From positions 62,001 to 126,000 of the forward strand of contig VYCF01000071.1 in NCBI GenBank assembly GCA_009844085.1: a DNA stretch of 64,000 nt, in the 5' to 3' direction. The translations under genes and the position numbers were made by a program. Shown here in pieces: positions 5,089 to 58,498 of the stretch; position 1 is the first letter of the stretch; each line of letters starts with the position of its first letter. Source of the stretch: Gammaproteobacteria bacterium. Lineage in GTDB: Bacteria; Pseudomonadota; Gammaproteobacteria; Pseudomonadales; Pseudohongiellaceae. A model generated the notes under the pieces. It did no database searches. It was given only the letters and a program-made list of their open reading frames with translations, and was not told where the DNA came from.

Positions 5089-5121
5089 TGGGCGCTTTGC
5101 TTGGCGACGAAGGAAATCGCA

Positions 5122-5637
5122 ATGCCTAACGGAGGTACTGACTGCTGTGGAACTTGCTGGTTCAATCGCGCAAACGAAGGAAAACGCGGCAGCGCCCACC
5201 ATAATCGAGACATTTCAAGCCACTGCGAAATACGGCAGTTGGACATACCCAATCCGTTTTACACATATTGTTCGAATCACCCCTACCACCGACCAGACCG
5301 CGACCCGATTCCAATCGGACCTGTCTTCACCCATGTGGCCACAGGCGCTTTGGGAGAGGGAAATCGGGAAGTATGGCAAGAATCGCCTGATACCGAAGAA
5401 ATCAGAAAACACTTGCTTGAAATTGTTAGTAACCCTGAGGAGCATCGAGACAAAGGCTACCATTTCTACACTTCGCCAGCCTACTTCAAGGCAATCGAGC
5501 AATTAATTGATTGGCGTGACGGGCGAGTCATTTCAGCACTTGAAGAATTGGCGCGGCATCCCGGATTGGACAAAGCAAGGCCGAGTATTGACGGCACAAT
5601 CCAACTCGTTCGGAATCGTCTTGGCTTCGACGATTAG
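5122..5637 (+). CDS. Cys-rich protein of unknown function
   Basis: A 171-residue cytoplasmic protein. The ATG at 5122 is preceded by AAGGAA; a TTG seven codons upstream is less likely. The N-terminal 55 residues hold five or more Cys and several His (TDCCGTCWFNRA, HCEIRQLD, TYCSNHPYH), suggesting a zinc site. The C-terminal part is helical. Base composition is visibly lower in GC than the flanks, and codon use differs, which suggests transfer together with the methyltransferase and GmrSD-like genes that follow on the other strand. The protein is not recognised. It may belong to the defence island or be a passenger. Confidence 0.65.
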   Translation: MPNGGTDCCGTCWFNRANEGKRGSAHHNRDISSHCEIRQLDIPNPFYTYCSNHPYHRPDRDPIPIGPVFTHVATGALGEGNREVWQESPDTEEIRKHLLEIVSNPEEHRDKGYHFYTSPAYFKAIEQLIDWRDGRVISALEELARHPGLDKARPSIDGTIQLVRNRLGFDD

Positions 5638-5668
5638 CGTCCTCTTTATGCAAGGGGCATCATACACT

Positions 5669-7213: not shown

Positions 7214-7276
7214 GGGGCGAAACTGCCAGACGCCGCAGAGCCCGTCAATCAGTCAGCAGTACGTATAATTTTCCCC

Positions 7277-9124
7277 TCAAACTTCCTTCAGCCTATCTAC
7301 GGACCAACATCTGTTGGCCAAAGCAATATAAAGTTCCTGTCGTTCGTCGAGATCCGCTTTTTTGAAGGAACTCTTTGCGGAAAACGGTAGACCCGTCTCG
7401 TCCCTGAATCTTCGAAACCCCGGCTTATTCTCGTAGGCGATTGGGTGTAGCGATTGGGCTAGCAAGTTCTGCTTTGCATAGTGCTTCACCTTCTCCTCGA
7501 AAGTCATGTCGCTGTAGCTGGCATTGTCTGGTCCCGGCAACAAGACAAGTCCTCCAATACGGTTTCGATACTCTGCGAAATCCGCCGAGTGGCCGAACTC
7601 ATCCTCAAATCGCTCGGGGTGATCAGCCCAGATGTGCTCAATCTGATAGCCGCCTTTCTTGGCTGATCGTTTCGCATACTCGGGGTAGCGGGGTTCTTGA
7701 CCCGAGTGAACCTCGGCAAATTCTGTCAAGCGAGCTAGCAGACGATGCACCTGTGGGCCGTTATTGCCATGCAGTCGAAAGGCTTCCTGAGTCTCAAAAT
7801 CGATGTATTCATCGCGACCCGCTCCTTCGGGTGACAAGCGACGGATTAGTTCGGCGGCAAGCGCATCCACATCCAACCTCCGAATCGCCTTCATGACAAG
7901 AAAAGCTCTGTACTGCATCGTGGAGTGGTCAATAGCCTTGAAATTCCATATCCGGCGGGCCAACATGATCTCGATGAAAATCGCGACCAGGCACATTTTG
8001 CGGGTCACTGTGTTTTTGTCATCTTCCTGCCGAAGCGGAGCCAGCATAAGGGGGTATTGCAGGGTGAAACTGTTCTGCGCATTGAAAAAGACCGAGGTGA
8101 GCCCGTCGGTATAGGTCTCGGCGGCACGACGGGCGCGGGAGTAGGCTCGGGCATAAAAACAGAAATCTTCCGTGACGAATGAAGTAAATTTAATACTTGA
8201 GGATAGTTCGACCCGGGACTTATTTTCCCGCACCCAGCGATGGAATTCGGTACCGAGCTTGTCGAAGTCCTCGGGCTTGGCCCCTGCCCTGCGCTCCCTG
8301 ATTTTGTCGGCATACTGGCTGCGGAGCCACGCCTTGACACAGTCGGCATCCTCGTCCTTGCCGAGATCAAGGAGCTTTGCCATCTGGTTCTTCCAAGAAT
8401 CGCTTGCCTGGGCTCGGTTGTCATCATCGGTAATATTGGCGAGAAGGTAGCCCTTGAGCATGTCCGTGGGGGTGAGGGACAAGCCCCGGTCGTTCATGGT
8501 CTCGAAGATCGTGTAAGCGTCATCGTCGGAGAACGCCGTGATCTCCACCAGCATGACTTTCTCGGTCAACCAGTCGAGAAAGTATGGGAGAGCATCACCC
8601 CGAAGATCCTCGGGAAAGATGTCAGTAATTTCATTGTAGCGATTGATAAGGTTTTGCACTGAGGGTGGCTGCTCGGCCGGATCGGGATTTTCACCGCTGA
8701 TCAGCGCCTGAAGGCAAGCGTTACGTTCCTGAACATCCAAGTTGAAAGACTTGCTACCGAACTGAGTCGAGTAGACAAGATTGGTGATTTCGACTCTTTG
8801 CTGGTCGGGACGGTTTTTCTGAAGGCCATCGAGATATATCAGGAGGAGCATGAGCGAGGTCAGTCGCTGCTGTCCATCAACAATAAAGCGGTCGCCATCT
8901 TTGTTCGAGATAATTACCGATCCGAGAAAATACTGTCCATATTGGGAAACTGTCTTGCGCTCGTGAGTGGGCAGGTAGTCAAGCAAAAACCGACTGGTGA
9001 GGTCCTCGATAAGCTCTCTGACTTGCTTGCTTCGCCACTTATATTCCCGCTGGTAGTAGTCAATTCTGAACTTTTGACCGAGAAGAGACTTTACAGACTT
9101 GTCATCGCCCTGGATTCTGCTCAT
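7277..9124 (-). CDS. GmrSD-type DUF262/DUF1524 protein (probable modification-dependent or phage-defence nuclease)
   Basis: A 615-residue protein. The N-terminal DUF262 domain has QREYKW (25-30) and the DGQQR motif (83-87), a ParB-like nucleotide-using core. The C-terminal DUF1524 domain has an HNH-type EHIW motif at H497 followed by an Asn/Gly-rich NRIGGLVLL stretch. This matches the fused GmrS-GmrD architecture of type IV restriction enzymes that cut modified DNA, and related BrxU or SspE-like defence proteins. No good ribosome site precedes the ATG at 9124, but the N-terminus aligns with the usual start of DUF262. It is followed by the methyltransferase-HNH gene. Defence is inferred from the family and pairing. 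Confidence 0.88.
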   Translation of the reverse strand: MSRIQGDDKSVKSLLGQKFRIDYYQREYKWRSKQVRELIEDLTSRFLLDYLPTHERKTVSQYGQYFLGSVIISNKDGDRFIVDGQQRLTSLMLLLIYLDGLQKNRPDQQRVEITNLVYSTQFGSKSFNLDVQERNACLQALISGENPDPAEQPPSVQNLINRYNEITDIFPEDLRGDALPYFLDWLTEKVMLVEITAFSDDDAYTIFETMNDRGLSLTPTDMLKGYLLANITDDDNRAQASDSWKNQMAKLLDLGKDEDADCVKAWLRSQYADKIRERRAGAKPEDFDKLGTEFHRWVRENKSRVELSSSIKFTSFVTEDFCFYARAYSRARRAAETYTDGLTSVFFNAQNSFTLQYPLMLAPLRQEDDKNTVTRKMCLVAIFIEIMLARRIWNFKAIDHSTMQYRAFLVMKAIRRLDVDALAAELIRRLSPEGAGRDEYIDFETQEAFRLHGNNGPQVHRLLARLTEFAEVHSGQEPRYPEYAKRSAKKGGYQIEHIWADHPERFEDEFGHSADFAEYRNRIGGLVLLPGPDNASYSDMTFEEKVKHYAKQNLLAQSLHPIAYENKPGFRRFRDETGLPFSAKSSFKKADLDERQELYIALANRCWSVDRLKEV

Positions 9125-9264
9125 TGGGAATGCTCGTATGACCTTGTTTTACTTGTAAGCGAGCACGCCTCGCCGTCTTTTTCAGGGGGCCCGGCGCACT
9201 TCAGAGACCCCTCAGGCGGCTTGCATGGGGACCACACTTCCGCAGTTCTCCAGCCCAAGTTAGC

Positions 9265-9534
9265 CTAATTCTGGAAGCTGATGAGGGTGCCGAGTATCGC
9301 CACGGCGAGGGCGAGCATGCCGGCTACCGTAATGACCAGCCTGGTTTCTCGCTTGGCCGAGTCTTCTGCCAGACGCCCTATATCAGTCTTGTATTGCCTT
9401 GTCATCTCGGCGTCTCGCTTGGCGGCGTCTTCGGCCAAGCGCGCAATGTCGGTTTTGTATTCAGCTTGTCTGGTTTCCATGCGTTCCTCCAGAACAGCCA
9501 CATCTGTGGTCAATTGTTGCAACTCAGCGGACAT
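9265..9534 (-). CDS. Small coiled-coil protein with C-terminal membrane anchor
   Basis: An 89-residue protein. Residues 1-60 are a long charged helix with a duplicated 16-residue unit (YKTDIARLAEDAAKRD and YKTDIGRLAEDSAKRE). Residues 64-85 form one transmembrane segment close to the C-terminus. No enzyme motif is present. It lies about 140 bp upstream of the GmrSD-like gene on the same strand. Other small coiled-coil membrane genes lie at 51576 and 58163, also beside recombination or ATPase genes. Function unknown; the start has only a weak ribosome site. Confidence 0.65.
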   Translation of the reverse strand: MSAELQQLTTDVAVLEERMETRQAEYKTDIARLAEDAAKRDAEMTRQYKTDIGRLAEDSAKRETRLVITVAGMLALAVAILGTLISFQN

Positions 9535-9702
9535 GATTCAATGATTCCCTGATTCAGGCGCAAAATTCAACTGACCGCCAAGGTCGCGGTTTTCTTTCGG
9601 AATCGGAAAATTCGCGGCGCCCGCTGCGATTGAGTATTGCCAGGCACAAGCATAGAATCCACATTCGTCTTTTTCTTACGGAAATCTGTCGGGAGAGTGG
9701 AT

Positions 9703-11427
9703 ATGCGGAAGATTGCGGGAAAATTTGCGCTGGGCGCGATTGCGGTGTTGCTGGCTGGCGCCGGCCAGGCGGCGGAGCGGGTAAGCGATTTTTCGCTTAT
9801 CGACCATCAGGGCAAGTTTCATCAGCTCAGCCGCTACGCTGACCATGATGCATTAGCGCTGTTCGCCCATGTGCCGGGTGACCGGGATTCGCGGCGGGCG
9901 TTAGAGGCGTACGACGAACTCGTTGGCGAGTACGCTGGACAGAATGTTGCGTTCTTCGTACTCGATTCCAGCGGCGAGACCGACAAATCCGCAGTCGGCC
10001 GGGATGCCGAACGAAATGAAGTGAGCGTTCCCGTGTTGATGGACGACACGGGGCTCGTGGCCAAGGAGCTTGGCCTGCGCAAAGCCGCCGAAGTCGTTAT
10101 TCTCGACCCGGAGAGTCGGGAAAACCTGTTCCGCGGCGTGATTAACGACCGCTTCGCGGCGGAAGACCGCTCCCGCCGCGCCAGCCGCCGTTATGCAGCC
10201 GATGCCCTGGGGCAAATACTCGCCGGCGGTGGGCTCGATGCTCCCATGCTCGCCAGCGGCGCGGAGACCGTTGAATTCAATTCCGTTTCGGCGATCTCCT
10301 ACGCCGAAGACATCGTTCCCATCCTCGAACGCCGCTGTCTGGCATGCCATACCGAAGGCGGCATCGCGCCCTTCGCGATGAGCAATCACCAGATCGTAAA
10401 AGGCTGGTCGCCGATGATTCGCGAAGTGCTCTACACCAAGCGCATGCCTCCAGGCCAGATCGACAACGACTATGTCCACGACTTCAAGGACGTGTCCCAC
10501 ATCACGGTCGACGAAACCCGGACGCTGGTGCAATGGATCGACGACGGCGCGAATTTTGGCGGCGGCGAGGATCCCTTGCCCGATTTGCAGCCGCAACACG
10601 TTAAGTGGAGCTACGGCGAACCCGACCTCGTGCTGCAGATTCCGCCGCAGCAGGTCCCCGCTACCGGCGTTCAGGACTACCGCCATCTCACCGTGCCGCT
10701 GCCGATCGAAGACGACATCTGGGTGCGGGCGGTCGAGTTCGAAGCCGGCGACCCCACCGTGCTGCACCATATCATCGCCTTCGCCTACGGTCCCGACGGC
10801 ATGAACGAGTTCGAAGTACTGAACCAGGGCATCGGCCTCGGCGCCTATGCGCCGGGCAACGAACTCAACACCTATCCGGAAGGCGCCGGTTTCCCGCTCA
10901 AGGCGGGCGGCGGCTTGTATCTGCAAATGCATTACACGACTTCCGGCAAGGAAACCGTCGACGCTTCCGAAGTCGCGCTGTATCTGTGGGACGAAGAACC
11001 CGAACGGGTAGTCTACGGCGGCTCTGCGGCGGAACTCGACATCGACATCGCGCCTTTCTCGCGGCAGGAAATGATTGCCACCAAGACGTTCCGCGAAGAT
11101 GCGTATCTTTCGATGCTTGGCCCCCACATGCATTTCCGCGGCTATGACGCGCGCTTCAGGCTCATCTATCCCGATGGCGAAAGCGCCGAAATCCTCAACG
11201 TACCCAATTACCAGTTCAACTGGCAGAAGACCTACGACTTCAAGGAGCCGCTGTTCGTGCCGGCGGGCAGCCAGCTCGAATTCAGCGGCACTTTCGACAA
11301 CACCGCGATGAACCCCTTCAACCCGGACCCTTCGGACACCCTGAGCTGGGGCGAGCAAAGCTGGCAGGAGATGTTCTTCGGTTTCTTCCGCTATGTTGAA
11401 GCCGGTCCGGGCGAAAGCAGCGACTAG
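9703..11427 (+). CDS. Redoxin - cytochrome c - copper monooxygenase (PHM-like) exported protein
   Basis: A 574-residue exported protein; GGGAGAG precedes the ATG at 9703 and residues 1-23 are a signal peptide. Domain 1 (25-175) is a thioredoxin/AhpC-like fold without the CxxC pair. Domain 2 has a c-type haem site, C212-x2-C215-H216, with M248 as a possible sixth ligand. Domain 3 (300-570) is a copper type II ascorbate-dependent monooxygenase. All ligands match rat PHM: H355-H356 and H410 for one copper, H475-x-H477 and M557 (in WQEMFFGFF) for the other. PHM hydroxylates the alpha carbon of a C-terminal glycine. It heads an operon with amidase-type and glyoxylate-using genes. The fold and ligands are seen; the substrate is inferred. 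Confidence 0.88.
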   Translation: MRKIAGKFALGAIAVLLAGAGQAAERVSDFSLIDHQGKFHQLSRYADHDALALFAHVPGDRDSRRALEAYDELVGEYAGQNVAFFVLDSSGETDKSAVGRDAERNEVSVPVLMDDTGLVAKELGLRKAAEVVILDPESRENLFRGVINDRFAAEDRSRRASRRYAADALGQILAGGGLDAPMLASGAETVEFNSVSAISYAEDIVPILERRCLACHTEGGIAPFAMSNHQIVKGWSPMIREVLYTKRMPPGQIDNDYVHDFKDVSHITVDETRTLVQWIDDGANFGGGEDPLPDLQPQHVKWSYGEPDLVLQIPPQQVPATGVQDYRHLTVPLPIEDDIWVRAVEFEAGDPTVLHHIIAFAYGPDGMNEFEVLNQGIGLGAYAPGNELNTYPEGAGFPLKAGGGLYLQMHYTTSGKETVDASEVALYLWDEEPERVVYGGSAAELDIDIAPFSRQEMIATKTFREDAYLSMLGPHMHFRGYDARFRLIYPDGESAEILNVPNYQFNWQKTYDFKEPLFVPAGSQLEFSGTFDNTAMNPFNPDPSDTLSWGEQSWQEMFFGFFRYVEAGPGESSD

Positions 11428-11440
11428 GCGAAGCCGCGCC

Positions 11441-13111
11441 ATGCCCAGATTTCTGGCCGGAATCGCCCTGCTCTGCGCCGTCTGGCCTGCGCTGGGCGAC
11501 ACCGTGTTGCTGGAGAACGTGAACGGATACACCCTCGACGGCAGCCGCGAACTCGTTCGATTCTCCGCCCTGCAATTCACCGACGGAGAGGTTGACCGCA
11601 TATTCGGCGCGGACGACGATCTGCCGGAGAACGTGGACCGGCGCGTCGACGGCGCCGGCAGGACCGTGATTCCGGGCCTGATCGACGCGCACGGCCATGT
11701 GTTCAGCCACGGCCGGGCGCTGCTTTCGGTAATCCTGACCGGCGCGGCTTCGGAACAGGAAGCCGCGCAAAGAGTGGCGGATTTCGCCGTAGAAAATCCC
11801 GAGGTCGAATGGATCCAGGGCCGGGGCTGGAACCAGGTGCTCTGGGAGAGCAACGAATTTCCGGGCGCCGCCAGTCTCGATGCGGTGGTCAGCGACCGGC
11901 CGGTATGGCTCGGACGCGTCGACGGTCATGCGGCCTGGGCCAATTCGCTCGCGATGGAAATGGCGGGCGTGACGGCTCAAAGCGAAGACCCGGATGGCGG
12001 ACAGATCATTCGGGACGCCGATGGAAATCCCACCGGCGTATTCATCGACACCGCGATGGGCCTCGTTTCCGGAATCATTCCCGAACCCGGCCGCGATGAG
12101 ATCAAGCGCGCGATTTCGGTTTCCATGCAGGATCTCGCCGGCTGGGGCCTGACCAGCGTCCATGACGCCGGTTCGGGCAGTGCGGTGATCGCAGCGTTCA
12201 GGGAGTTGCTCGAAGCGGGCGAAATGCCGATTCGCGTCAACCTGATGCTGGCTGCGAGCGATCAATTCTATGAGGAGCGCCTGGCGGAGGGACACTTTCG
12301 CGATGCAAACGACTTTTATGTGATGCATTCGGTCAAGGTGGTAGGCGACGGCGCCCTCGGCAGCCGCGGCGCCGCCTTGCTGGAAGAATATTCCGACGAT
12401 CCGGGCAATCACGGTCTGCTGCGCTACACCGACGAGCAATTGGAGTACCTGATGCGCGCGGCGATGAACGCCGGCTTTCAGGTCAACACCCACGCGATCG
12501 GCGACGCCGCCAACCAGATTGTGCTCGATACCTACGAGCAACTCATCAACGAAACCGGCAGGGGAGACCTGCGCCATCGGGTGGAACACGCCCAGGTGCT
12601 GACCTTCGACGATATCCTGCGTTTCGCCGAACTCGGCGTAGTCCCTTCGATGCAGGCGGTCCACGCCACCAGCGACAAGAACATGGCCGAGGACCGGCTG
12701 GGACCGGTGCGCATTCAGGGCGCCTACGCCTGGCGCAAATTGCTCGAAACCGGCGTGATCATCGCCAACGGCTCGGATTTCCCGGTCGAGCATCCGAATC
12801 CTTTCCACGGCCTGCACGCATCGGTCACACGCCAGGATCAGGCCGACGAGCCCGACGGCGGCTGGTATCCCGAAGAGAACATGACCCTGGAAGAAGCCTT
12901 CGCCAGTTTCACCATCGACGCTGCCTGGGCCGGGCGCCAGGAAGATGTCCTGGGGACGCTCGAACCGGGCAAGAAAGCCGACTTCCTGTTGCTTGACCGG
13001 GATCTGTTCGAAATTCCCGCAAACGAAATCTGGCAGATCCAGGTGCTGGAAACCTGGGTCAACGGCGAACGTGTTTTTTCCCGCGCGGCGCAAGCCGAAA
13101 CAGTTAACTGA
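11441..13111 (+). CDS. Exported YtcJ-like amidohydrolase
   Basis: A 556-residue metal-dependent hydrolase of the amidohydrolase superfamily. The ATG at 11441 lies 13 bp after the previous stop and gives a signal peptide (MPRFLAGIALLCAVWPALG). Metal and active-site motifs are in order: GLIDAHGHVF, GRVDGHAAWANS, KVVGDGALGSRG, VNTHAIGDAAN, HRVEHAQVL and ANGSDFPVEHPNP. The closest known group is YtcJ/amidohydrolase_3, which cleaves amide bonds in N-acyl or related small compounds. Position between the PHM-like enzyme and the acylase suggests action on an amide product of that pathway. The family is certain, the substrate unknown. Confidence 0.88.
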   Translation: MPRFLAGIALLCAVWPALGDTVLLENVNGYTLDGSRELVRFSALQFTDGEVDRIFGADDDLPENVDRRVDGAGRTVIPGLIDAHGHVFSHGRALLSVILTGAASEQEAAQRVADFAVENPEVEWIQGRGWNQVLWESNEFPGAASLDAVVSDRPVWLGRVDGHAAWANSLAMEMAGVTAQSEDPDGGQIIRDADGNPTGVFIDTAMGLVSGIIPEPGRDEIKRAISVSMQDLAGWGLTSVHDAGSGSAVIAAFRELLEAGEMPIRVNLMLAASDQFYEERLAEGHFRDANDFYVMHSVKVVGDGALGSRGAALLEEYSDDPGNHGLLRYTDEQLEYLMRAAMNAGFQVNTHAIGDAANQIVLDTYEQLINETGRGDLRHRVEHAQVLTFDDILRFAELGVVPSMQAVHATSDKNMAEDRLGPVRIQGAYAWRKLLETGVIIANGSDFPVEHPNPFHGLHASVTRQDQADEPDGGWYPEENMTLEEAFASFTIDAAWAGRQEDVLGTLEPGKKADFLLLDRDLFEIPANEIWQIQVLETWVNGERVFSRAAQAETVN

Positions 13112-25162: not shown

Positions 25163-26341
25163 ATGACTGAACTGCCGAAGAAACTGCCACATCAGACCGG
25201 TTCCTTCCCGCTCGCCGCCCTTCTGCTGGTCACTCTTCTGCTGACGCTGGCCGGCTGCGGCGACAGCGGCGCGCCGGCCGAACCGGTCGCGGCCGCGCCG
25301 GAACCCGTAGCCGAAACCGAACAGCAATTGATCGAACGCGCCAGGGGAATACACGACCGGGTCATCACGCTCGATACCCACGTCGATATCGATACTTCGA
25401 ATTTCACCCAGGACAACAATTACACGAGCGATCTCGACACCCGGGTGACCTTGCCTAAGATCGAGGCCGGCGGGCTCGACGTGGTCTGGTTCATCGTCTA
25501 TACCGGCCAGGGCCCGCTCGATGAGGAAGGCTATGCGGCGGCCTACGCCAACGCCATCGACAAGTTCGACGCAATTCATCGGCTAGCAGAGGAAATCGCC
25601 CCTGATCGAATCGGCATCGCGCTGACTTCGGACGATGTCCGCGAGATCGCCGCGAGCGGACGCAAGGTCGCCATGATCGGCATCGAGAACGCATATCCCC
25701 TCGCACTCGATCTGTCCCGAATCGAGGAGTTCCATGACCGCGGCGGGCGCTACATGTCGCTCGCCCACAACGGGCACAACCAGTTGTCAGACTCCCATAC
25801 CGGCGAAGCCGAGGGCGATTTCCTGCACGGGGGACTGAGCGAACTCGGCCGGCAAGCCATAGCCGAAATGAACCGGCTCGGCATCATGGTCGATCTCTCG
25901 CATCCTTCGGCCGAAGCCATCTCGCAGATGCTCGACATCAGCACCGCGCCGGTCATCGCGTCGCATTCCTCGGCCCGGGGGCTGACCGACAACAGCCGCA
26001 ACCTGAGCGACGAGTTGCTGCTCCGGATCCGCGATAACGGCGGCGTGGCGCACGTCACGGCTTTCGGCGCCTACGTCAGCGATACCGAGCCGGCGACAGT
26101 CGCCGACTTGGTTGACCATGTGGACTACATGGTAGACTTGATCGGCATCGAACATGTTGGCATCAGTTCGGATTTCGACGGGGGCGGCGGCATCGAAGGC
26201 TGGAGCGACGCCTCCGAAACCTTCAATGTCACCCTTGAACTCGTCAGGCGCGGCTATAGCGAGGAAGAAATCGAAATGCTGTGGAGCGGCAACCTGTTGC
26301 GCGTACTCGACGAAGTCCAGCGCATCGCCGCCGCGAACTGA
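25163..26341 (+). CDS. Membrane dipeptidase (M19), lipoprotein
   Basis: A 392-residue lipoprotein with a lipobox ending LAGC. It belongs to the renal dipeptidase family of zinc hydrolases that cleave dipeptides, including some with D residues. Metal ligands visible in order are DTHVDID (His and Asp), GIENAYP (bridging Glu), LSHPSA (His), ASHSSARGL (His) and SSDFDGGG (Asp). It starts 15 bp after the methyltransferase stop, so the two are probably co-transcribed, and the Tat-exported aminotransferase follows after 68 bp. Its place in an isoprenoid-like cluster is unexplained; a peptide-conjugated product is one idea. Confidence 0.92.
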   Translation: MTELPKKLPHQTGSFPLAALLLVTLLLTLAGCGDSGAPAEPVAAAPEPVAETEQQLIERARGIHDRVITLDTHVDIDTSNFTQDNNYTSDLDTRVTLPKIEAGGLDVVWFIVYTGQGPLDEEGYAAAYANAIDKFDAIHRLAEEIAPDRIGIALTSDDVREIAASGRKVAMIGIENAYPLALDLSRIEEFHDRGGRYMSLAHNGHNQLSDSHTGEAEGDFLHGGLSELGRQAIAEMNRLGIMVDLSHPSAEAISQMLDISTAPVIASHSSARGLTDNSRNLSDELLLRIRDNGGVAHVTAFGAYVSDTEPATVADLVDHVDYMVDLIGIEHVGISSDFDGGGGIEGWSDASETFNVTLELVRRGYSEEEIEMLWSGNLLRVLDEVQRIAAAN

Positions 26342-26409: not shown

Positions 26410-27555
26410 ATGACCAGCAAAGTAAGCAGAAGACAACTGTTGCTCGGCGGCTCGGCGCTGTTCGCCGGAGGCGCCTTGCAGTCGATTGCGGGCGGCAAAT
26501 TCCTGCCCGGCCTCGATTTGATGCCAGGCGCCCATGCGCAGGATGTGATACCCAGGCCGGATTACATCATTCGCATGAGTTCGAACGAGAATCCCTGGGG
26601 GCCGTCGCGGGTCGCCTTGCGCGCGATCTATAACGCGATCGACGAAGCCAATCTGTACTCCTTCTACGGCAACCCCCTGCCGGCGCTGATCAGCAGGCAA
26701 CAGGATATCGGCATCGACCACATCAGCCTCGGCGCGGGTTCGGCGGAACTGCTGAAAGTGGGCGGTCTGCTCGCGGGCATGCGCGGCGGCTCGATCGTCA
26801 TTCCCCATCCCACGTTCGAGGATCTGCCGGACTACGCCGAAGCCAATGGCACCGAGGTGATCCGCGTACCCGTGGACGGCGACATGAAAACCGACCTGGA
26901 AGCCATGGCGAGCGCCATCCGCGCCGACACCAGGCTGGTCTATCTGTGCAATCCCAACAACCCGATTCCCAACGTCATCGAAAAGAACGCGCTGCGGGAT
27001 TTCATCCTCGAAATCGCCCGGGACCGCATGGTCTTCCTCGACGAGGCCTACCACGAATTCGTGGACAATCCCGACTACAGCACGATGATGGACCTGGTCC
27101 GCAACGGCCAGCGTAACCTGATCATCACCCGCACCGCCTCCAAGATTCACGGCCTCGCCGGGCTGCGCGTGGGTTTCGCCTTTTCCCACCCTGAACTCGC
27201 CCGGGAAATCACCAACCGGCAAACGGGTTTGCAAAACATCGTCGGCGTGCGCGCCGCCGAGGCCAGCTACCAGGATGAGGAACATTCGAGTTTCGTGTTG
27301 CGAACCGCGCGCGAGTCGCTCGACATCGTCGAAGGCTATCTGGATTCGGCCGGAATCAATTACATCAAGTCCAACGCCAATTTCAGCTTCATCGAAACCG
27401 GGCATCCGATCGAGGAAGTCCAGGCCCGTTTCCTGGCGGAAAACATCCAGGTCGGAAGACCGTTCCCCCCATTCACCGACTGGATGCGGCTGAGCATGGC
27501 GAAACCGGATGAGATGCGCTATTTCGTACAGACGTACCGGAAGCTGTTCGCCTGA
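26410..27555 (+). CDS. Tat-exported HisC-like PLP aminotransferase
   Basis: A 381-residue fold-type I aminotransferase that resembles histidinol-phosphate aminotransferase. It has MSSNENPWGPS, NPNNPIPNVI, FLDEAYHEFV and the PLP lysine in TASKIHGLAGLRVGF. Unlike cytoplasmic HisC it begins with a twin-arginine signal (SRRQLLLGGSALFAGGAL), so it is folded with PLP and exported. GGAGAG precedes the start. It lies between the dipeptidase and the Rieske oxygenase on the same strand. An exported amino-group transfer or racemase/lyase-type reaction on an amino acid or amine is likely; histidine synthesis is not. Confidence 0.88.
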   Translation: MTSKVSRRQLLLGGSALFAGGALQSIAGGKFLPGLDLMPGAHAQDVIPRPDYIIRMSSNENPWGPSRVALRAIYNAIDEANLYSFYGNPLPALISRQQDIGIDHISLGAGSAELLKVGGLLAGMRGGSIVIPHPTFEDLPDYAEANGTEVIRVPVDGDMKTDLEAMASAIRADTRLVYLCNPNNPIPNVIEKNALRDFILEIARDRMVFLDEAYHEFVDNPDYSTMMDLVRNGQRNLIITRTASKIHGLAGLRVGFAFSHPELAREITNRQTGLQNIVGVRAAEASYQDEEHSSFVLRTARESLDIVEGYLDSAGINYIKSNANFSFIETGHPIEEVQARFLAENIQVGRPFPPFTDWMRLSMAKPDEMRYFVQTYRKLFA

Positions 27556-48208: not shown

Positions 48209-51190
48209 TCAGAAATCGTAAACCAGTCGAGCGTAGAGGATTCGGCCCATTACATCCTGCAAGCCGCCTACCACGCCCATGAACTCCGGAGAGCGCTGGG
48301 GTTCGCGGTCGAACACGTTGCGCGAGCCGATGGTCATGGCCATCTCGCCGTCGAACAACTCAAGGCCGCGATAGGTATACGCCAGGTCCATGTCGGTCCA
48401 GGCATAGATGCCGGTCTCGAAGATTCCGCCAGGTCGATAGAACCCGCTGAAGAAATCCATGTGCGAGTAGGACGGTCCGTCGTAAGGCAGGTCGTCGATG
48501 TAGTGGACCGTGGAAACCACGGAGTGGTTGCCGTTGGTCCAACTCATGCGCATATTGACCTTCCAGGGCGGCAATTCAGGCGCAGCGCCGGTGCCCCAGT
48601 TGTACTTGCCTGCCACGTCGCGCGGCGGGGATTCCGGGTCGCTTTGCACCAGGAATTCCTGCACGTATGTGGCCTGCAGTCCGATGCGGAAATCACCGAT
48701 ATTGTCGAAGCCGAACGTGTAGTTGGCGTCGAAGTCCATGGCGGTGACCTTCACGAATTCCGCGTTGATCGACCCGCGGCAGCAAATCTCCAGAATCGTG
48801 GCGACATCGCCCCGGGAACGGAGGATTTGCTTGTTGGAGCGGGGATCGTTCACCCAGGCCTGCAACTGGTCCAGCGAAGGCTTGCCGCTACCGGAAAATC
48901 CGGTCGCCTGCCTGAACACCTCGAATTCCTCGTTGAGGATGTCCTGGGCGTTCTTGCCGACGATTCGATTCTGGAAGTCGATCTGCACCCATGTCGCGCT
49001 GAAATCGAAATCGTCGAAGGCGATATCGAAACCGAGCTGCTTGGAGTCGGAAGTCTCATTGTCCAGATTCGGATTGCCGCCGCCGCAGGTCGTTGTCCAG
49101 GCTTCGAAAGTGCTGAACGGGTCGCTCACCGTACCGAGTCCGCAAGTGACCGGATTCAGCAATTGCTCCAGCGTCGGCGCGATGAACGCCTCGCCCGCGG
49201 TGGCGCGCAAGGTGAGCCAGTCGAGCGGGGCGAAAGTTATGCCATACTCGGGGACCGTAGCGGTCTGGCCGGTACTGAACTCCTCGTGGCGCACCGCCAG
49301 TTCCACTTCAACGGTGTCGAGCACCGGCAGGGCGAACTCGGCGAAATACGCGTCGATGTTTCGCGATCCGCTGCTGGCCCGCTCCCTGTTCGAGCTGCCA
49401 ATCCAGGTGACGCCGGCCAGTTCCTCTTCCGAAGGAATGTTGAGGTACTTGTCGTCGCGGAACTGGTAGCCGAGGGCTGCGCCGATCGGTCCGCCGGGCA
49501 ACTCGAATCCGCCCAGCGGAACCTCGCCGTTGATGACGATGTCAACCGTGGTCAACTTGTCCTCGATGACTTCAATGCTGCGTCCGGCGACCGCGTTCAT
49601 CACGTGAACCGAATTGTTGTCCTCGGGGTTCACGATCAGGAACGGGCTGTAACAGGCGCTGCGGTCATACACGATATCGCATTGCAGACCCTGTTGCATT
49701 GCGGTGATGTCGTAGTTCTGGTTCGACATGAACTGCAGTTCGCGATAACCGTGGGTATACGCTGCCTCGCCTTGCCAGCCTTCCAGGAACGGGACCGTGA
49801 ATTCCGCCTCGAACGAGTAACGGCTGATGTGGTCGATATTGTCGGACAGGTTGGCTGCGTCAGCCGAGTGGCCGTGGGACCGCGTATGCGTCTTGTTGAT
49901 CGGACGCAAGGTTCGCGCCACGACGTCTTCGTACAGCGGAATCCAGCCGTTCGGATGCACGATCGCGTCCATCAGTCCGTCGTTGTTCAGGTCATCCATG
50001 CCGCGATCCGGAAGACCGTCCCCATTCCAGTCGACGCCGAAAAGGTTATCGGCCGGGTCGGAGCAAACGAAGGGGTTGAAACGATCGAATCTGCCGCCCG
50101 CACAAGCCCGGAAAGGATTGCCCGGGTGTTCGCCGCGAACCGCCGGCAATTCGCCGATGCGCGAGTTGCCCGGATTGGAGGTCGAGGTGTAAGTCCGCTC
50201 GGCTATGCGGGTGTGGTAGCCCTGGAAGGAAAGCGTCAGATCGTCGTTGACGTCGTAGGAGAGATTGGCGAACAACTGCGTTTTTTCGAGCGGCTCGCGC
50301 GCACTGCGCTGGTCGCCGAAATCGAAAAAGCAGCTTGTGCCCAGTCTCATGCCGTAGGCGTTTGCGGCCACGCCGGGGGTATAGTCTGTTCGTTGCGAGC
50401 CCGGAGTACAACTGGGATCGGCCGCTCGACCGCGGCTGCCAGTATACATGCCGTCCTCGTCGCGATTCGGCACGAACCAGTTGCCCGGCGCGTTCGACGA
50501 AATCACCAGGCCCGAGTTGGCCAGCAGGCTCCGCTCGTTCCAGGCCAGCCGGCTGTTCTGGTGAAACTGTCCGGCCAACACCATGTCGACGCCGCCGAGA
50601 TCGCCGCCCCAGAGGAACTGCACCGAATGCTCGTCGTAGTCGCCGCGGGTATCGCCTTCGGCGAATGTCTCGATCCTGAACCCGTCATACGAGGTGTAGG
50701 GCACGAAGTTGACGACTCCCGACACCGCCTCGTTACCGTACAGCGCCGCGTTTCCGTCCGCCACGATATCCATTCGCTGGATCGCGATCGTGGGGATCAT
50801 GGCGAGAACGTTCTCGTTTACGACGCGCTTGCCGTCGAGCAAGGTCAATGTCGAGCGGGCTCCCAGGCCGCGCAGGTCGACAGCGGTGGAACGGGAATCC
50901 TGTCCCTGGATCGTATTGGTGATCTGGGAAGCGTCGCCGTTCACGAACGTAAGTTGCGACACCACCTCACCGAGGTTCAGGGTGCCTTCGGCTTCCAGAT
51001 CTTCTGCAGTAAGAGTAACTACCGAAGATGCCTGATTGAAGCCTTCCGTGCGACGGATATAGGAACCCGTTACGATAACCTCTTCTACCGTGGCCTCGTC
51101 CTGCGCAAGGCTCGTGCCGGCGACCGGCAAGAGCGATAGCGAGACGGCCGCGCAAAGCAGGCTTCGCTTATGTGGAATCTTGAACTGCAT
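48209..51190 (-). CDS. TonB-dependent receptor 1 (currently expressed arm of the switch)
   Basis: A 993-residue receptor. GGAGAG precedes the ATG. Residues 1-29 are the signal peptide (ending SLA-Q), then DEATVEEVIVTGSYIRR with the TonB box, the plug (STLTLLDGKRVVNEN, IQRMDIVADGNAALYGNEAV) and a barrel ending in ARLVYDF. It lies downstream of a near-consensus promoter at 51456-51485. The 16-bp inverted repeat at 51069-51084 covers codons 36-41. Receptor 2 at 53045 is a close paralogue in opposite orientation without start or signal peptide. The ligand is unknown. Confidence 0.95.
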   Translation of the reverse strand: MQFKIPHKRSLLCAAVSLSLLPVAGTSLAQDEATVEEVIVTGSYIRRTEGFNQASSVVTLTAEDLEAEGTLNLGEVVSQLTFVNGDASQITNTIQGQDSRSTAVDLRGLGARSTLTLLDGKRVVNENVLAMIPTIAIQRMDIVADGNAALYGNEAVSGVVNFVPYTSYDGFRIETFAEGDTRGDYDEHSVQFLWGGDLGGVDMVLAGQFHQNSRLAWNERSLLANSGLVISSNAPGNWFVPNRDEDGMYTGSRGRAADPSCTPGSQRTDYTPGVAANAYGMRLGTSCFFDFGDQRSAREPLEKTQLFANLSYDVNDDLTLSFQGYHTRIAERTYTSTSNPGNSRIGELPAVRGEHPGNPFRACAGGRFDRFNPFVCSDPADNLFGVDWNGDGLPDRGMDDLNNDGLMDAIVHPNGWIPLYEDVVARTLRPINKTHTRSHGHSADAANLSDNIDHISRYSFEAEFTVPFLEGWQGEAAYTHGYRELQFMSNQNYDITAMQQGLQCDIVYDRSACYSPFLIVNPEDNNSVHVMNAVAGRSIEVIEDKLTTVDIVINGEVPLGGFELPGGPIGAALGYQFRDDKYLNIPSEEELAGVTWIGSSNRERASSGSRNIDAYFAEFALPVLDTVEVELAVRHEEFSTGQTATVPEYGITFAPLDWLTLRATAGEAFIAPTLEQLLNPVTCGLGTVSDPFSTFEAWTTTCGGGNPNLDNETSDSKQLGFDIAFDDFDFSATWVQIDFQNRIVGKNAQDILNEEFEVFRQATGFSGSGKPSLDQLQAWVNDPRSNKQILRSRGDVATILEICCRGSINAEFVKVTAMDFDANYTFGFDNIGDFRIGLQATYVQEFLVQSDPESPPRDVAGKYNWGTGAAPELPPWKVNMRMSWTNGNHSVVSTVHYIDDLPYDGPSYSHMDFFSGFYRPGGIFETGIYAWTDMDLAYTYRGLELFDGEMAMTIGSRNVFDREPQRSPEFMGVVGGLQDVMGRILYARLVYDF
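51068..51095 (-). repeat. Recombination site, left copy (inside receptor 1)
   Basis: On the minus strand this 28-bp window reads 11-bp arm, AAGAGG core (51079-51084), 11-bp arm. The 16 bases AAGAGGTTATCGTAAC (51069-51084) are identical to 53043-53058 in inverse orientation. The outer arm here (GGCCACGGTAG) matches the other copy at only 7 of 11 positions because it is signal-peptide-proximal coding sequence. Confidence 0.85.
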
Positions 51191-51455
51191 AATATCTCTC
51201 CATCGAAAATTCGACTGTTTTATGAGCGAAAGCGGCGCGGAATGCCGTTCCGATCAGTTTTTGCGGCGATCTCCCGCGGGGCGATTTCTCCGCCGGCGTC
51301 CGGGCCGGGCTGCATGACAAAACCAGTACGTACTTGAAGATCAGGGTTCTGTCCTGCGGCGACGGTCATGTCCCGATCGGCCAATCCCTCGCCGACCCTG
51401 CCGAACCAGACCTTCCGGACGAGAAATCGCCATGCCGGAATCTCCGCATCGCCGC
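51191..51455 (-). promoter_or_regulatory. Long leader of receptor 1
   Basis: About 260 bp lie between the predicted transcription start and the ATG. The region has no convincing gene; open frames here are short and without ribosome sites. GGAGAG at 51196-51201 is the receptor ribosome site. A regulatory role of the long leader is possible but no riboswitch class is recognised. Confidence 0.5.
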
Positions 51456-51485
51456 ATACTAAAAACATTTATTCGGGAGTGTCAA
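51456..51485 (-). promoter_or_regulatory. Promoter of receptor 1 inside the invertible segment
   Basis: On the minus strand a consensus -35 TTGACA (51480-51485) is followed by an 18-bp spacer and TAGTAT (51456-51461) as -10. It starts just downstream of the terminator at 51488-51507 and points to receptor 1. It is the only good promoter seen for either receptor. Confidence 0.75.
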
Positions 51486-51487
51486 AC

Positions 51488-51507
51488 AAAAAAGCCGACT
51501 TCTCGGC
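51488..51507 (-). terminator. Short terminator insulating the receptor promoter
   Basis: On the minus strand stem GCCGA/TCGGC with a 4-bp loop is followed by six T. It ends the recombinase/coiled-coil transcript immediately before the receptor 1 promoter. Confidence 0.65.
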
Positions 51508-51575
51508 ACGCAAGTGTTACATGCCCACACATTTACCCGAATTCGCGCCTCGGCTGCGCGGGAAGAGACGCCGGG

Positions 51576-51977
51576 TCATAGATCGGCCACGGGGTCCGGT
51601 TCCGGCATGGCGCCGTCACCGGGCGGGGATTCCGGAGATGCGGGAGGCGCATTGCCGAAGACGCCGGATTCGACTCTAATCAGGCGGCCGTTCAGGTCGA
51701 AAAGTTGGCCGTCGATTCGTTCCAGGCGGTTTTCGACGCGGTCAAGACGATCGTCCACGCGATCAAGGCGGCCGTCTATTCCGTTGAATCGAATGTCTAC
51801 AGCATCAAACCGGGCGTTTACTTCGCCACGGAAAGAACTCATTTCGTTGCGGAGCGAACCGGTCATCCATGCCATGGAGCCAACAGTAGAGCCAATAATC
51901 GCCAACACGGCCACGAGCAGGTTCAAGTTTTCAGCTACCGGGCGCCGGGCTGTTTTCACAAGATTGGACATATCCAT
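51576..51977 (-). CDS. Small membrane protein with heptad-repeat coiled coil
   Basis: About 133 residues from the ATG at 51977 (a second ATG two codons later is equally good). Residues 14-36 form one transmembrane helix near the N-terminus. Residues 45-105 are a coiled coil of seven-residue units such as GRLDRVD, DRLDRVE and NRLERID. The tail is Pro/Asp/Glu rich. It lies 74 bp downstream of the recombinase, on the same strand and within the predicted invertible segment. Similar heptads recur in the fragment at 57979. Function unknown; an accessory to recombination or a passenger are both possible. Confidence 0.72.
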   Translation of the reverse strand: MDMSNLVKTARRPVAENLNLLVAVLAIIGSTVGSMAWMTGSLRNEMSSFRGEVNARFDAVDIRFNGIDGRLDRVDDRLDRVENRLERIDGQLFDLNGRLIRVESGVFGNAPPASPESPPGDGAMPEPDPVADL

Positions 51978-52051
51978 TTCGGGACAATCGTAGCAAGTCG
52001 CGGTTACATGGCAAGTTTTTGCGAAAAAAACCGCAGGCGGGCGGCTTCCGG

Positions 52052-53011
52052 TCATTTTCCGTAACGCAGTCGGGCGACGGCGGAGCGGCCGGCTATTTCC
52101 GCCCGGGCGTACCTGGCGGGCATCCCAGGCGACTTCCAGCGCCCGACGGTCTGCAACTCCACGAGTCCTGCGCCGGCGCCGGCCAGACTCTGCGCCGCAC
52201 CGACGCGCAAGGAATGCCCTCTGACGGTTCCTTCAATGCCGGCGTCTTTTGCGCATCGTTGAATGATTGCGCGCATGGAATGTGCGCTGAGTCCATTCTT
52301 CAGGACCGCTCCGTCTTCGCGTACCTGGCGGAACAGGGGGCCGTCGTCAATGGCGGCGCACCCAATCCATGCCTGTAAACGGGTCACCGTGGAAGCGCCG
52401 AGATAGAGTACGGCGCCGAGACCTTCCTGATCCGTTTTGGAGAATCGAATGACAAGGCGGCCCGAACCGTCTTTGCGAGCGGCGAAGTCACCTGTCTGCA
52501 ATGCCGAAAGTTCGCCGACTCTAAGCAAGGCGTCGCTCGCGGTGGCGACAATCGCGGCGTCTCGAATACCGGCGAGTTTCTTTCGTCGCCCGGACGCAAT
52601 TTCCGCCATTCGGTCGGCTTCTTCCCAGGTAATGCCTTGCGCCTGACCGCGGCCACGTTCTCGCCCGGCGCGGCGGATCCCCGCGAGAACCCGTTTTGAC
52701 GATGGGCCATAAGGAACATCCCAGTCGGCTACTTTCGCGGCGAATTGAATGGCGGCGACCACCTGGGAGCAAGTAGCCGGCGAGTTCCCGGATTCGTGCA
52801 ACCAGGCAAGGTATTCGGCGAAAGTCTCGTCTGTTAGCTGGTGGTTGCCCAACCATGAATTCAATCTCGCGATCGCACCCTGATACGCGCGCCGCGTCGC
52901 TGGCGCAACCGAATCGGAGGCAAGCTCGCGCGCGGAATTCGAGAAGCTTTTGCAAAACTCGGATTTGATGCACAAGTTCGGAGAGAATCCCGAAGAGGTA
53001 AGTAACGGCAT
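52052..53011 (-). CDS. Tyrosine recombinase (predicted receptor-switch invertase)
   Basis: A 319-residue site-specific recombinase. The ATG at 53011 has GGAG upstream; the frame is open to a TTG at 53029. An N-terminal SAM-like core-binding domain (about 25-110, RRAYQGAIARLNSWL) precedes the catalytic domain. Catalytic residues are R164 (LLRVGEL), K192 (SKTDQ), H266 and R269 in GHSLRVGAA, W292 in VGRWKS, and the nucleophile Y301 in ARYAR. The set is complete. Its start lies just 20 bp inside a 28-bp site with 11-6-11 architecture at 53032-53059, so it probably acts there, and its own promoter may overlap the site. No phage or transposon genes accompany it. Confidence 0.92.
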   Translation of the reverse strand: MPLLTSSGFSPNLCIKSEFCKSFSNSARELASDSVAPATRRAYQGAIARLNSWLGNHQLTDETFAEYLAWLHESGNSPATCSQVVAAIQFAAKVADWDVPYGPSSKRVLAGIRRAGRERGRGQAQGITWEEADRMAEIASGRRKKLAGIRDAAIVATASDALLRVGELSALQTGDFAARKDGSGRLVIRFSKTDQEGLGAVLYLGASTVTRLQAWIGCAAIDDGPLFRQVREDGAVLKNGLSAHSMRAIIQRCAKDAGIEGTVRGHSLRVGAAQSLAGAGAGLVELQTVGRWKSPGMPARYARAEIAGRSAVARLRYGK

Positions 53012-53031
53012 AACCAAAGCTCCATGCAAAA

Positions 53032-53059
53032 GGTTACGTTATAAGAGGTTATCGTAACC
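53032..53059 (+). repeat. Recombination site, right copy, 11-6-11 architecture
   Basis: Arms GGTTACGTTAT (53032-53042) and TTATCGTAACC (53049-53059) are inverted with 9 of 11 matches and flank the 6-bp core AAGAGG (53043-53048). This is the size and form of XerCD/dif-type crossover sites. The core and right arm are shared, inverted, with receptor 1 at 51068-51084. Confidence 0.82.
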
Positions 53060-55969
53060 GGTTCGTACATCCGCCGTTCGGAGGGATTCACCCAGGCGTC
53101 CTCGGTAACCCAACTTACCGCCGAGGATTTGGAAGCCGAAGGCACGATGAATCTGGGCGAAGTGGTGCAGAATCTGTCGTTCGTTAACGGCGGCGCTTCG
53201 GCTATCACGAACACCTTCCAGCGCTCCGGCGCGGATTCACGCGCCACCAATATCGACTTGCGAGGATTAGGACCCCGTTCCACGCTGACCTTGCTGGATG
53301 GCAAACGTCTGGTGAACGAAAACGTAAATGCATTGATCCCGACGATCGCCATCCAGCGAATGGACATCGTTGCCGACGGCTCCGCAGCGCTTTACGGCAA
53401 CGAAGCCGTGGCCGGCGTGGTCAACTTTGTGCCATACCGCAGCTATGAAGGCTTGCGCATAGATACCTTTGTCGAGCAGGATTCCCGCGGCGACTATGAC
53501 GAACATGCGGTTCAGGTGTTATGGGGTGAACAGTTCGGCGACCTGGACCTGGTGCTGGCTGGCGAGTTCCGCCAATCCGGGCGGCTCGGCTATGACGAGC
53601 GGCCCACGCTCGCCAACTCCGGTCTCACCTGGTCGTCCGTCGCACCGGGCAACTACTGGCTGCCGACACGCGACGAGAACGGCGAATATACCGGCGAGAG
53701 GATCAGGGCGAAGGATCCGAATTGCGGCGCGGAAAGAGACTTTATCACGGCGCACCTGGTGGCGAGCCGTTACGGCTTTGCCCACTCCGACGGCGTCAGT
53801 TGCATGCTCGAATACGGGGACAATCACAGCTATCGCAATCCGATCGGCGCCAACAAGTTCTTCGCGAACGCGACTTGGGACGTAAACGACGATCTCACGC
53901 TTTCGCTGCAGGGCTTCGTGACGCGCTACGGCGAATTGGGTTACGGTTCGACTTCCAACCCCGGCAACCAGCGTGTGCGGGAACTGCCCGCAGTTCGCGG
54001 CGAAATGCCGCACAATCCTTTCCGGGCCATGAATGCTCTGGGGCAGCCGCTTTACGCCGTAGACTACAATGCAGACGGCATTCCGGATCGGGATTCCGAC
54101 AAGGACCTCAACAACGACGGCTGGCCCGATCCAATCCTGACCCCGAACGGCGGTCTGGTTCCCTGGCTGCCCTTGTACGAAGACGTGGGGATCCGCGGCA
54201 TTCGCATTCTCAACAAGTCCATGACGCAGATTTCGGCGCATTCAGCAGACAAGGACAACCTGTCAGACAACATGGACCGACTGCACCGCATTACTTTTCA
54301 GGGCGATTTCAATGTGCCCTTTATCGAAGGCTGGCAGGGTATGGTCGCCTATACGTACAACTACCGCGAGATCGATTTTATGTCGAATCAGAATTATGAC
54401 TTCGACGCGATCGTGCAAGGTCTGGAGTGCGATGTGGTAAACGACCGCGAAGGCTGCTATACACCTTTCTATATTACGGATCCTTCCCAAGGCACCCATG
54501 CCCATGTGCTTGACGCTATCGCGGCGCGGGAACGCGAGCAGGTGGAAGATACGCTGGGCTTGTTGGATATCGTGTTCAATGGCGAAATTCCGCTATTCGG
54601 CTTCGAATTGCCGGGTGGGCCAGTGGCGGCCGCAGTCGGCTACCAATACCGTGACGGCGCGTATAAAAACACGCCATCCGCCGTGGAGATCAGGGGCGCC
54701 CCCTTCATCGGGTCTTCTACTCCCGAAGACATTACCCAAGGCAACCGGGAAGTGGATGCCTTTTTCGCTGAGTTGTCGGTTCCGGTGTTGGACGACTTGG
54801 TGCTGGAATTCGCGGTGCGTCGCGAGGAGTTCAGCACCGGTCAGACTTCCACCGACCCGAAATACGGAATTACCTATGCGCCGCTGGAATGGCTGACTCT
54901 GCGGGCGACCCAGAGCGAAGCGTTTATCGCGCCAACGCTGGAACAGCTTTTTGCTCCCGAAGTGTGCGGTCTGAGTTCCGTGACTGATCGATTCGGTCCA
55001 TGGGACGCATTCACCAGCCGCTGTGGGGGCGGAAACCCCAACCTCAAGAACGAGAGTTCCGAATCACAGCAGTTCGGTGTTGACCTCGTTTTCGACGATT
55101 GGGATCTGAGCATCACCTGGAACCAGACGGATTTCGGCAACCGCATCGTGTCCGCACCCGGCCAGTTGATCATGGATGTTGATTTCCTCAATTTCCAGAA
55201 CTGGTCCGGCTTCAGCGGCACCGGCGAAGGCCCAGGCCAGCAGCCCAGCCTGGACCAGCTTCGTTCGTGGCTCGCCAGCGGCCTGTCGGACCCGCGCATC
55301 GTGCGCGACCCGGAAGACATACACCAGATTCTGCTGGTGCAAACCGGCAGCACGAACGCGTCCCAGGTTTCCGTAACCGCCTATGACATTCAGGGTAACT
55401 ACAATTTCTCCCTGAACGACTGGGGTAATTTGCGGCTCAACTTGTTGGCCACCTATATCGACGAATTCACGTACCAGAACAACCCGACGCAGAATGTCCG
55501 TCATGCCGAGGGGCTGTACAACATAGCCACGGACGCGGCGCCGGCGCTGCCCGAGTTGAAGGCGAACCTGAGGGCTGTCTGGTCGATGGGCAATCACTCG
55601 GTGAACGCCACTATCCACTACATCGATTCAGTCGAGTACAAGACCGAAAGCGAGGACGGCGACGGCAATCGAACCTACGTTGGCGGGCCGACCTACGGCA
55701 GTTCGTTCGGCAATCCAGCCGTGGCCAACAGCACCTACAACGTAGGTCCGTGGATTACCCAAGCCGGTATCTTCGCCTGGACTGACATGGATATCGCCTA
55801 CACCTACCGGGGCTTCGAGTTCTGGGACGGCGAGATGGCGTTCACGATCGGCTCGCGCAACGTGTTCGACCGTGAAGCGCAACGTTCCCCGCTGTTCTCC
55901 GGCGTCATCGGCCAGTTGCAGGATCCGCTAGGACGCATGATCTACGGGCGCGTGGTCTACGACTTCTGA
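53045..55969 (+). pseudogene. TonB-dependent receptor 2, start-less silent copy
   Basis: The frame is open for 974 codons from EVIVTGSYIRRSEGF to the terminal VVYDF but begins directly after TAA at 53042-53044. There is no start codon with ribosome site, no promoter and no signal peptide; the first in-frame ATG is 34 codons in. It aligns with receptor 1 from the TonB box to the C-terminus (LTAEDLEAEGT, STLTLLDGKR, IQRMDIVADG, SRNVFDREAQRSP). Absence of any frameshift or internal stop over 2.9 kb argues against decay and for a reserve gene read after inversion. Ligand unknown; the barrel loops differ from receptor 1, so it may bind another ligand. Confidence 0.85.
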
Positions 55970-58162: not shown

Positions 58163-58498
58163 TCATTCGGGCTCGCTCTCTCCACCGGGCGGCTGCTCGG
58201 CGACCGCTTCGTAGGCCGCGTCCCCGTTGAGCACACCCTCAACCCGCCCCAGCCGTTTGCTCAATTTCCCCATTTCTTTGCGCAGGTCATTCATTTCCTT
58301 GCGCAGTTCGTTCATTTCCTTGCGCAAGTTGTCCTTCATTTCGGACATCTCCTTGCGCAGGTCGTCCTTCAGTTCGGACATTTCCTTGCGCAAGTCGGTG
58401 CTTAACGTGTGAATTTTCGCCTGCAAGTAAATTGCCAGCAATAATATCGCCCCAAGGATGAGGCCCTGCTCGGCAAATGCGTTGACGATGGCGTTCAT
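58163..58498 (-). CDS. Small membrane protein with tandem DLRKEM coiled-coil repeats
   Basis: A 111-residue protein; AAGGAG lies six bases before the ATG at 58498. Residues 8-27 are a transmembrane helix. Residues 33-80 are tandem units of 11 then 7 residues (DLRKEMSELKD, DLRKEMSEMKD, NLRKEMNE, LRKEMND, LRKEMGK) forming a coiled coil, and the tail is acidic. It shares its plan, not its sequence, with the gene at 51576. Function unknown. Confidence 0.75.
   Translation of the reverse strand: MNAIVNAFAEQGLILGAILLLAIYLQAKIHTLSTDLRKEMSELKDDLRKEMSEMKDNLRKEMNELRKEMNDLRKEMGKLSKRLGRVEGVLNGDAAYEAVAEQPPGGESEPE
58272..58398. repeat. Tandem in-gene repeats encoding LRKEM units
   Basis: Imperfect direct repeats of 33 bp (two) and about 21 bp (three), each containing TTTCCTTGCGCA, code for the coiled coil of the 58163 gene. 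Such repeats can change copy number without breaking the frame. Confidence 0.7.

Follow-up and report, generated by a model that had tools for sequence, protein, structure and literature searches.

A DNA segment between two divergent genes for TonB-dependent receptors very probably acts as a two-state inversion switch, in which a single promoter and signal peptide would serve either of two receptor bodies. The inversion itself we infer from the anatomy of the locus, its conservation and the selection acting on its genes. The locus lies in a gammaproteobacterium of the Pseudohongiellaceae (assembly GCA_009844085.1), within 64,000 nucleotides of contig VYCF01000071.1 that were analysed as a whole, hereafter the window. 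Its features, numbered from the first base of the window, are:

48209..51190, minus strand, receptor 1, a complete TonB-dependent receptor of 993 aa (Pfam Plug and TonB_dep_Rec_b-barrel)
51068..51095, minus strand, left site, in receptor 1 codons (23/28 positions like the right site, spacer 6/6)
51069..53058, predicted invertible segment of 1990 bp, with the receptor 1 leader, promoter, 159-aa gene and recombinase
51456..51485, minus strand, promoter-like site of receptor 1, TTGACA-18-TAGTAT, inside the segment
51576..52055, minus strand, putative membrane and coiled-coil protein (by eye) of 159 aa, with no Pfam family
52052..53011, minus strand, Cre-like tyrosine recombinase of 319 aa from an ATG start (52052..53029 with TTG; Pfam Phage_integrase, E 2.4e-12)
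53032..53059, plus strand, right site GGTTACGTTAT-AAGAGG-TTATCGTAACC, at the receptor 2 junction (arms 9/11, 6-bp spacer)
53045..55969, plus strand, receptor 2 body of 974 codons, without start or signal peptide

Anatomy of the predicted switch

Receptors 1 and 2 are paralogs with 60% identity. Receptor 1 starts with an ATG at 51190 and has a signal-peptide-like N-terminus; its orthologs in seven genus genomes display 88-97% identity. The receptor 2 frame contains no stop from 53045 until its own at 55969, and TAA is the codon immediately 5' of its first TonB-box codon. An initial sequence-only reading had described a perfect 16-bp inverted repeat at TonB-box codons common to the two receptors, and this was borne out: 51069-51084 (minus) and 53043-53058 (plus) match at 16/16 positions, cover (E)EVIVT in both proteins and are the only two matches in the window when up to three mismatches are allowed. 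Its further observations were reproduced, namely that promoter, start and signal peptide belong to receptor 1 only, that the recombinase is complete inside the segment, and that inversion generates an in-frame fusion to receptor 2. When the segment is inverted in silico, leader and receptor 2 form one frame of 1010 codons that resembles leader-bearing orthologs, and receptor 1 is then preceded by TAA. As in invertons, inverted sites surround a segment containing a promoter and a coding start, and a linked recombinase has its predicted catalytic residues intact. A silent body without a start that is fused exactly in frame on in silico inversion is the arrangement of coding-end-swapping inversions of the Ureaplasma mba and vsa type.

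In the mechanism proposed here, the recombinase encoded by the segment would cut and rejoin two inverted 28-bp sites, which hold the TonB-box codons of the two receptors. In the orientation observed, promoter and signal peptide are joined to receptor 1, and receptor 2 would be silent, cut off by the stop codon before it; inversion would place promoter and leader in frame with receptor 2 and make receptor 1 the silent body. Both the action of the recombinase on these sites in the cell and the rate of switching are presumed.

The nearest solved sequence to the recombinase is Cre (E 9.5e-14), which it resembles, although the predicted window spacer is 6 bp compared with 8 bp in loxP. Residues R164, K192, H266, R269, W292 and Y301, which we take to be the catalytic residues of a tyrosine recombinase, are invariant in five aligned sequences. 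The start of the 159-aa gene overlaps the recombinase stop and the two genes, probably co-transcribed, both read toward receptor 1 in the state seen.

Taken by itself, a promoter scan of 50900-53200 does not exceed chance, with two sites versus 0.9 expected in shuffles. Conservation gives the receptor 1 promoter firmer support, as its hexamers and spacing recur ∼385-405 bp 5' of the receptor 1 TonB box in all eight genomes with receptor 1 (window included). DNA alignment upstream of receptor 1 reaches 51487-51490 in four of seven relatives and ends at 51468, 51352 and 51266 in G096, G134 and G135, respectively. The same scan revealed no promoter-like site facing receptor 2 and none recognised for the recombinase; a search for an RNA leader of receptor 1 gave no Rfam match up to E 0.5.

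Receptor 2 in relatives

The exact match between the two receptors at the TonB box spans 16 bp in the window and 16 bp in G096, where a recombinase is present, and 23, 11, 35 and 5 bp in G135, G097, G098 and G095, which lack it. As paralogy gives 5-35 bp in these four relatives, the 16-bp repeat alone is no evidence for a switch, and the weight initially placed on it was overstated. Homology upstream of the receptors stops at the site in the window and G096 (15/60 and 22/60 bases alike), compared with 47-53/60 in the four relatives. In the latter, receptor 2, at 91-94% identity, begins with a start codon and signal peptide of its own; it is divergent from receptor 1 in G135, G097 and G098, and the two genes are on separate contigs in G095. 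Among the findings that the sequence-only reading had counted against a switch were a complete receptor 2 in relatives and direct repeats at the ends of a simple integrative element. The first was encountered, in three of the four relatives at the same place and without the recombinase, but the window contains no direct repeat of the site with up to three mismatches.

A leader survey covered 84 genus genomes, with at most 10 candidates scored per genome, and comprised 89 stop-free matches starting at the TonB box (20 others were left out). Two of the 89, receptor 2 of the window and of G096, are leaderless, the open frame stopping where the match does; in the remaining 87 it continues for at least 39 codons, part of which may be downstream in two early-ending matches.

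The layout of the window recurs in G096, where receptor 2 is a different one. Between the two genomes, identity is 97% for receptor 1 but only 66% for the recombinase and 67% for receptor 2, which indicates that the part comprising recombinase and receptor 2 was exchanged or acquired separately; no clear mosaic of the two receptor 2 sequences was evident in 150-base steps. The sequence TACGTTATARGAGGTTATCGTAACC precedes both truncated receptors, and the leaderless junction is common to the two genomes despite their differing recombinases and receptor 2 bodies. The search of relatives for the opposite orientation, suggested at the outset, recovered the layout in G096, but in an orientation identical to that of the window. 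No inverse junction is present in the genome's own assembly, and viral contigs, a weak test, gave 0 matches.

On the branch of the window receptor 2, dN is 0.026-0.027 and dS 0.49-0.50, a ratio of 0.05-0.06 (NG86 three-way subtraction), and neighbouring branches have dN/dS values of 0.03-0.085. In simulations of neutral frames, 42.5% of 200 replicates were stop-free at 0.01 substitutions per site and 0.5% of 200 at 0.05. These data favour a receptor 2 that is still used or that lost its leader very recently, with G096 arguing for continued use; leader loss in the window lineage could be recent. It is conceivable that receptor 2 is simply a recent casualty, its leader taken by an insertion or deletion of a recombinase element, with no switching. 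The leader-bearing orthologs, the failure to find the inverse orientation and the survival of stop-free frames over short neutral periods are all consistent with such a history. We consider it unlikely, however, as the G096 junction is identical despite a different receptor body and recombinase, the palindromic site has an inverted partner, the receptor 2 branch has a dN/dS of ∼0.05, and at 0.05 substitutions per site a neutral frame hardly ever stays free of stops. The inversion switch, as originally read, is supported by the relatives in which both receptors have leaders, the layout of G096, the inverted partner site, selection on receptor 2 and a second locus in the same genome (see below).

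Predicted recombination sites and the recombinase family

The palindromic arms of the right site were equalled in 3/100 shuffles, while the outer arm of the left site is native receptor sequence. A second site was sought at 16 recombinase loci, using cores picked by eye and a threshold of ≥19/28 positions with ≥5/6 spacer bases. A separate second site was present in eight loci (the window, contig 31 of the same genome, G096, G103, G094, L095, L111 and L119) and in all eight it is inverted, with a 6/6 identical spacer and none direct, noting that the threshold favours like spacers and that these loci are partly related; the remaining eight loci had no separate second site. Shuffled cores gave 0.06 second-site matches per scan in the window and 0.01-0.07 per locus across six loci. 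Paired spacers are alike in any one genome but vary from genome to genome, being AAGAGG in the window and AGGAGG in G096, and TTCCAG in contig 31 and G094 as opposed to TTGCAG in G103. Receptor 1 orthologs without a recombinase have AAGAGG, AGGAGG or AGGAAG at this position. The exact window-type site pattern occurs in two of the 84 genus genomes, those of the window and G096. With up to three mismatches it occurs in 13/84, mostly at ordinary TonB boxes, and a reversed control also matches many genomes, so the pattern is specific only if exact.

These sites bear on whether the locus is an ordinary integrative element for which the TonB-box codons serve as the integrase attachment site. A tyrosine integrase domain is present and the junction adjoins the start of the recombinase, in line with such an element, but direct attachment repeats are not found at both ends, the sole partner site in the window is inverted, the far side lacks a receptor 2 leader, and the site pairs of recombinase relatives are inverted with none direct (16 loci), making this explanation very improbable. 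Less credible still is that the repeat reflects paralogy only, with occasional inversion by homologous recombination between the receptors and no dedicated recombinase, since the paralogous matches that exist without a recombinase leave the recombinase, the palindromic outer arm and the missing leader in two genomes unexplained.

Beyond the genus, some recombinase relatives of other phyla have 11-6-11 palindromes nearby, with a 6-bp spacer and inner arms resembling GATAA...TTATC. Those upstream in L095, L098 and L110 were matched in quality by 0/100 shuffles each, while in the scan of 32 loci as a whole many were not above chance; judged by arms alone, the best palindromes of G096 and G103 were equalled in 40/100 and 51/100 shuffles, respectively. 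An automatic pair scan of 82 loci with spacer 6 found the best second site inverted in 18 and direct in two, the corresponding values being 6/2, 7/3 and 12/2 for spacers of 5, 7 and 8. The scan is noisy, many matches being G-rich repeats or paralogous receptor DNA, and it missed G096; the matches relied on, site-like by eye, are those of the window, L095, L111, L118, L119, L137, L145 and L157. Long exact inverted repeats are absent near recombinase relatives in most loci scanned and present in L097, L118, L120 and L124; that of L118 overlaps its site pair, and the L120 repeats are near contig ends.

Contig 31 contains a recombinase 36% identical to that of the window, located between two divergent receptors. 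The start regions of these receptors share a 155-bp exact inverted repeat, and two inverted palindromic sites (contig 31 positions 25622-25647 and 26991-27016) lie on either side of the recombinase. One promoter-like site, TTGACT-17-TATCCT, points toward one receptor only (1 versus 0.7 by chance), and G103 displays the same type of arrangement with TTGACT-17-TATTCT (1 versus 0.3 expected). At contig 31, inversion would appear to reorient a promoter and not to fuse coding sequences. No natural flip was seen there, as the orientation in this genome (G000) and G103 appears alike, a comparison that is moderately supported given the likeness of the two receptors in each pair. In a 47-row tree the window and contig 31 recombinases occupy separate, well-supported clades, and invertases were therefore probably recruited twice to receptor pairs of this lineage.

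Of 507 recombinase relatives, the matches listed in the scan of genome contigs cover 80. In L095, a Latescibacteria chromosome, the recombinase relative is separated by a small inverted site pair from a receptor carrying CarboxypepD_reg and Plug domains. This receptor was missed by the receptor profile built from the genus and then found by Pfam, so absence by that profile carries little weight. Neighbours of other relatives contain collagen, Ig-like, RTX and LRR domains and a weak TbpB-like match; ten neighbours were chosen by eye for the Pfam test and six had matches, the TbpB-like one falling just below the cut-off. These hand-picked neighbours are suggestive of an association between the recombinase family and surface genes. 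Judging by the isolate codes, the MAGs may be sponge-associated.

Relation to known systems and significance

The switch proposed belongs to a known kind, the swapping of coding ends by inversion that Ureaplasma mba exemplifies, but the literature searched contained no case in this host group and form. According to the excerpts of PMC3047005, two open frames facing opposite ways at Ureaplasma mba/UU172 can each be joined by inversion to a single 5' end that encodes the signal peptide and anchor, and, as in the window, coding ends are swapped through a repeat inside coding sequence. The products are surface antigens rather than TonB-dependent receptors, and those excerpts assign no recombinase to mba, whereas one is inside the window segment. 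In Mycoplasma pulmonis vsa, silent 3' ends acquire the promoter, the ribosome site and the 5' portion of the coding sequence, with a tyrosine-recombinase-like gene (hvsR) in the vicinity, again like the window; vsa is, however, a multigene family with a 714-nt common coding part, compared with two bodies and 36 codons here (PMC2268961, in excerpt).

The sequence-only reading was also correct that switches of SusC-like receptors are known in Bacteroidetes. Excerpts of PMC4747536 cite the SusC/SusD shufflons of Bacteroides fragilis, in which the master recombinase Tsr0667 mediates multiple inversions, and inversion of TonB-dependent receptors in Bacteroides also features in those of PMC11892184 and PMC8042965. 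The fragilis system resembles the window in that inversion controls TonB-dependent receptors, but comprises shufflon-type SusC/SusD clusters in Bacteroidota rather than one receptor pair in a gammaproteobacterium (PMC4747536, in excerpt); no SusD-like Pfam match occurs in seven open frames neighbouring the window pair. Uropathogenic E. coli ipuS/UpaE likewise exemplifies inversion of surface-protein control by a proteobacterial tyrosine recombinase, although the excerpts of PMC6083910 describe promoter inversion of an autotransporter and no coding fusion, in contrast to the window. No proteobacterial TonB-dependent receptor pair of this kind was found in the titles and abstract starts searched, mostly open-access. 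A Pseudomonas paper considered as precedent, PMC3056050, uses inversion-related words in other contexts in the part seen.

The benefit of switching would likely be to hedge bets in outer-membrane uptake, or to evade phages and other receptor-binding agents. More speculatively, and with less than even probability, TonB-box codons may be a standard joining point, the recombinase and leaderless body forming a cassette that can be exchanged next to a constant receptor 1 with the sole leader; inversion would let new bodies be captured and expressed, and the lineage would have recruited distant invertases to receptor pairs at least twice.

In MAGs of several phyla, genes for secreted or surface proteins neighbour some of the recombinase relatives. 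If the switch operates as predicted, the exact junctions would be countable in existing metagenome reads, and a gammaproteobacterium known from assembled genomes only would switch its nutrient receptors, using one promoter and signal peptide for two bodies, with the TonB box as the crossover point. This would take phase variation of TonB-dependent receptors beyond the Bacteroidota cases in the literature searched.

The contig 31 locus and solo copies of its site

The window's genome holds a second locus with a recombinase and a receptor pair, on contig 31, which from its sequence is predicted to be of the promoter-inversion type.

L025 (G000:C31:18000-34000) 4866-11821: recombinase and receptor-pair locus
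L025 7623-7648 and 8992-9017: sites of this locus, spacer TTCCAG

The 26-bp palindrome of this type was found, with up to three mismatches allowed, in 7 of the 84 genus genomes. Solo copies occur on G095:C6, G097:C13, G097:C28, G098:C92, G108:C158 and G108:C420, and in the stretches examined no intact recombinase was found beside them; the reversed control pattern was absent from all four of these genomes. Several solo copies stand directly upstream of genes that, judged by eye, resemble those for secreted proteins.

Surroundings of the window receptors

Small proteins lie close to the receptors, and a remnant of a receptor 2 ortholog is present in G094.

Window 51576-52055 and 58163-58498: small putative membrane-plus-coiled-coil proteins
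L071 (G094:C78) 8682-9164: C-terminal remnant of the ortholog, 94% over 160 aa

Copies similar to window 58313-58397 adjoin receptor loci in seven of nine relative stretches compared, tandem-like in several. No further part of the ortholog aligned within the 11.3 kb of G094:C78 examined.

Sites beside recombinase relatives in other phyla

In Latescibacteria, an inverted site pair (L095 9512-9808) adjoins a relative of the window's recombinase, upstream of a TonB-dependent receptor. Palindromic sites in inverted orientation (best copy GCTCGCGATAACTACAGTTATCGCGAGC) flank a recombinase relative in a Chloroflexi MAG (L157 940-2298).
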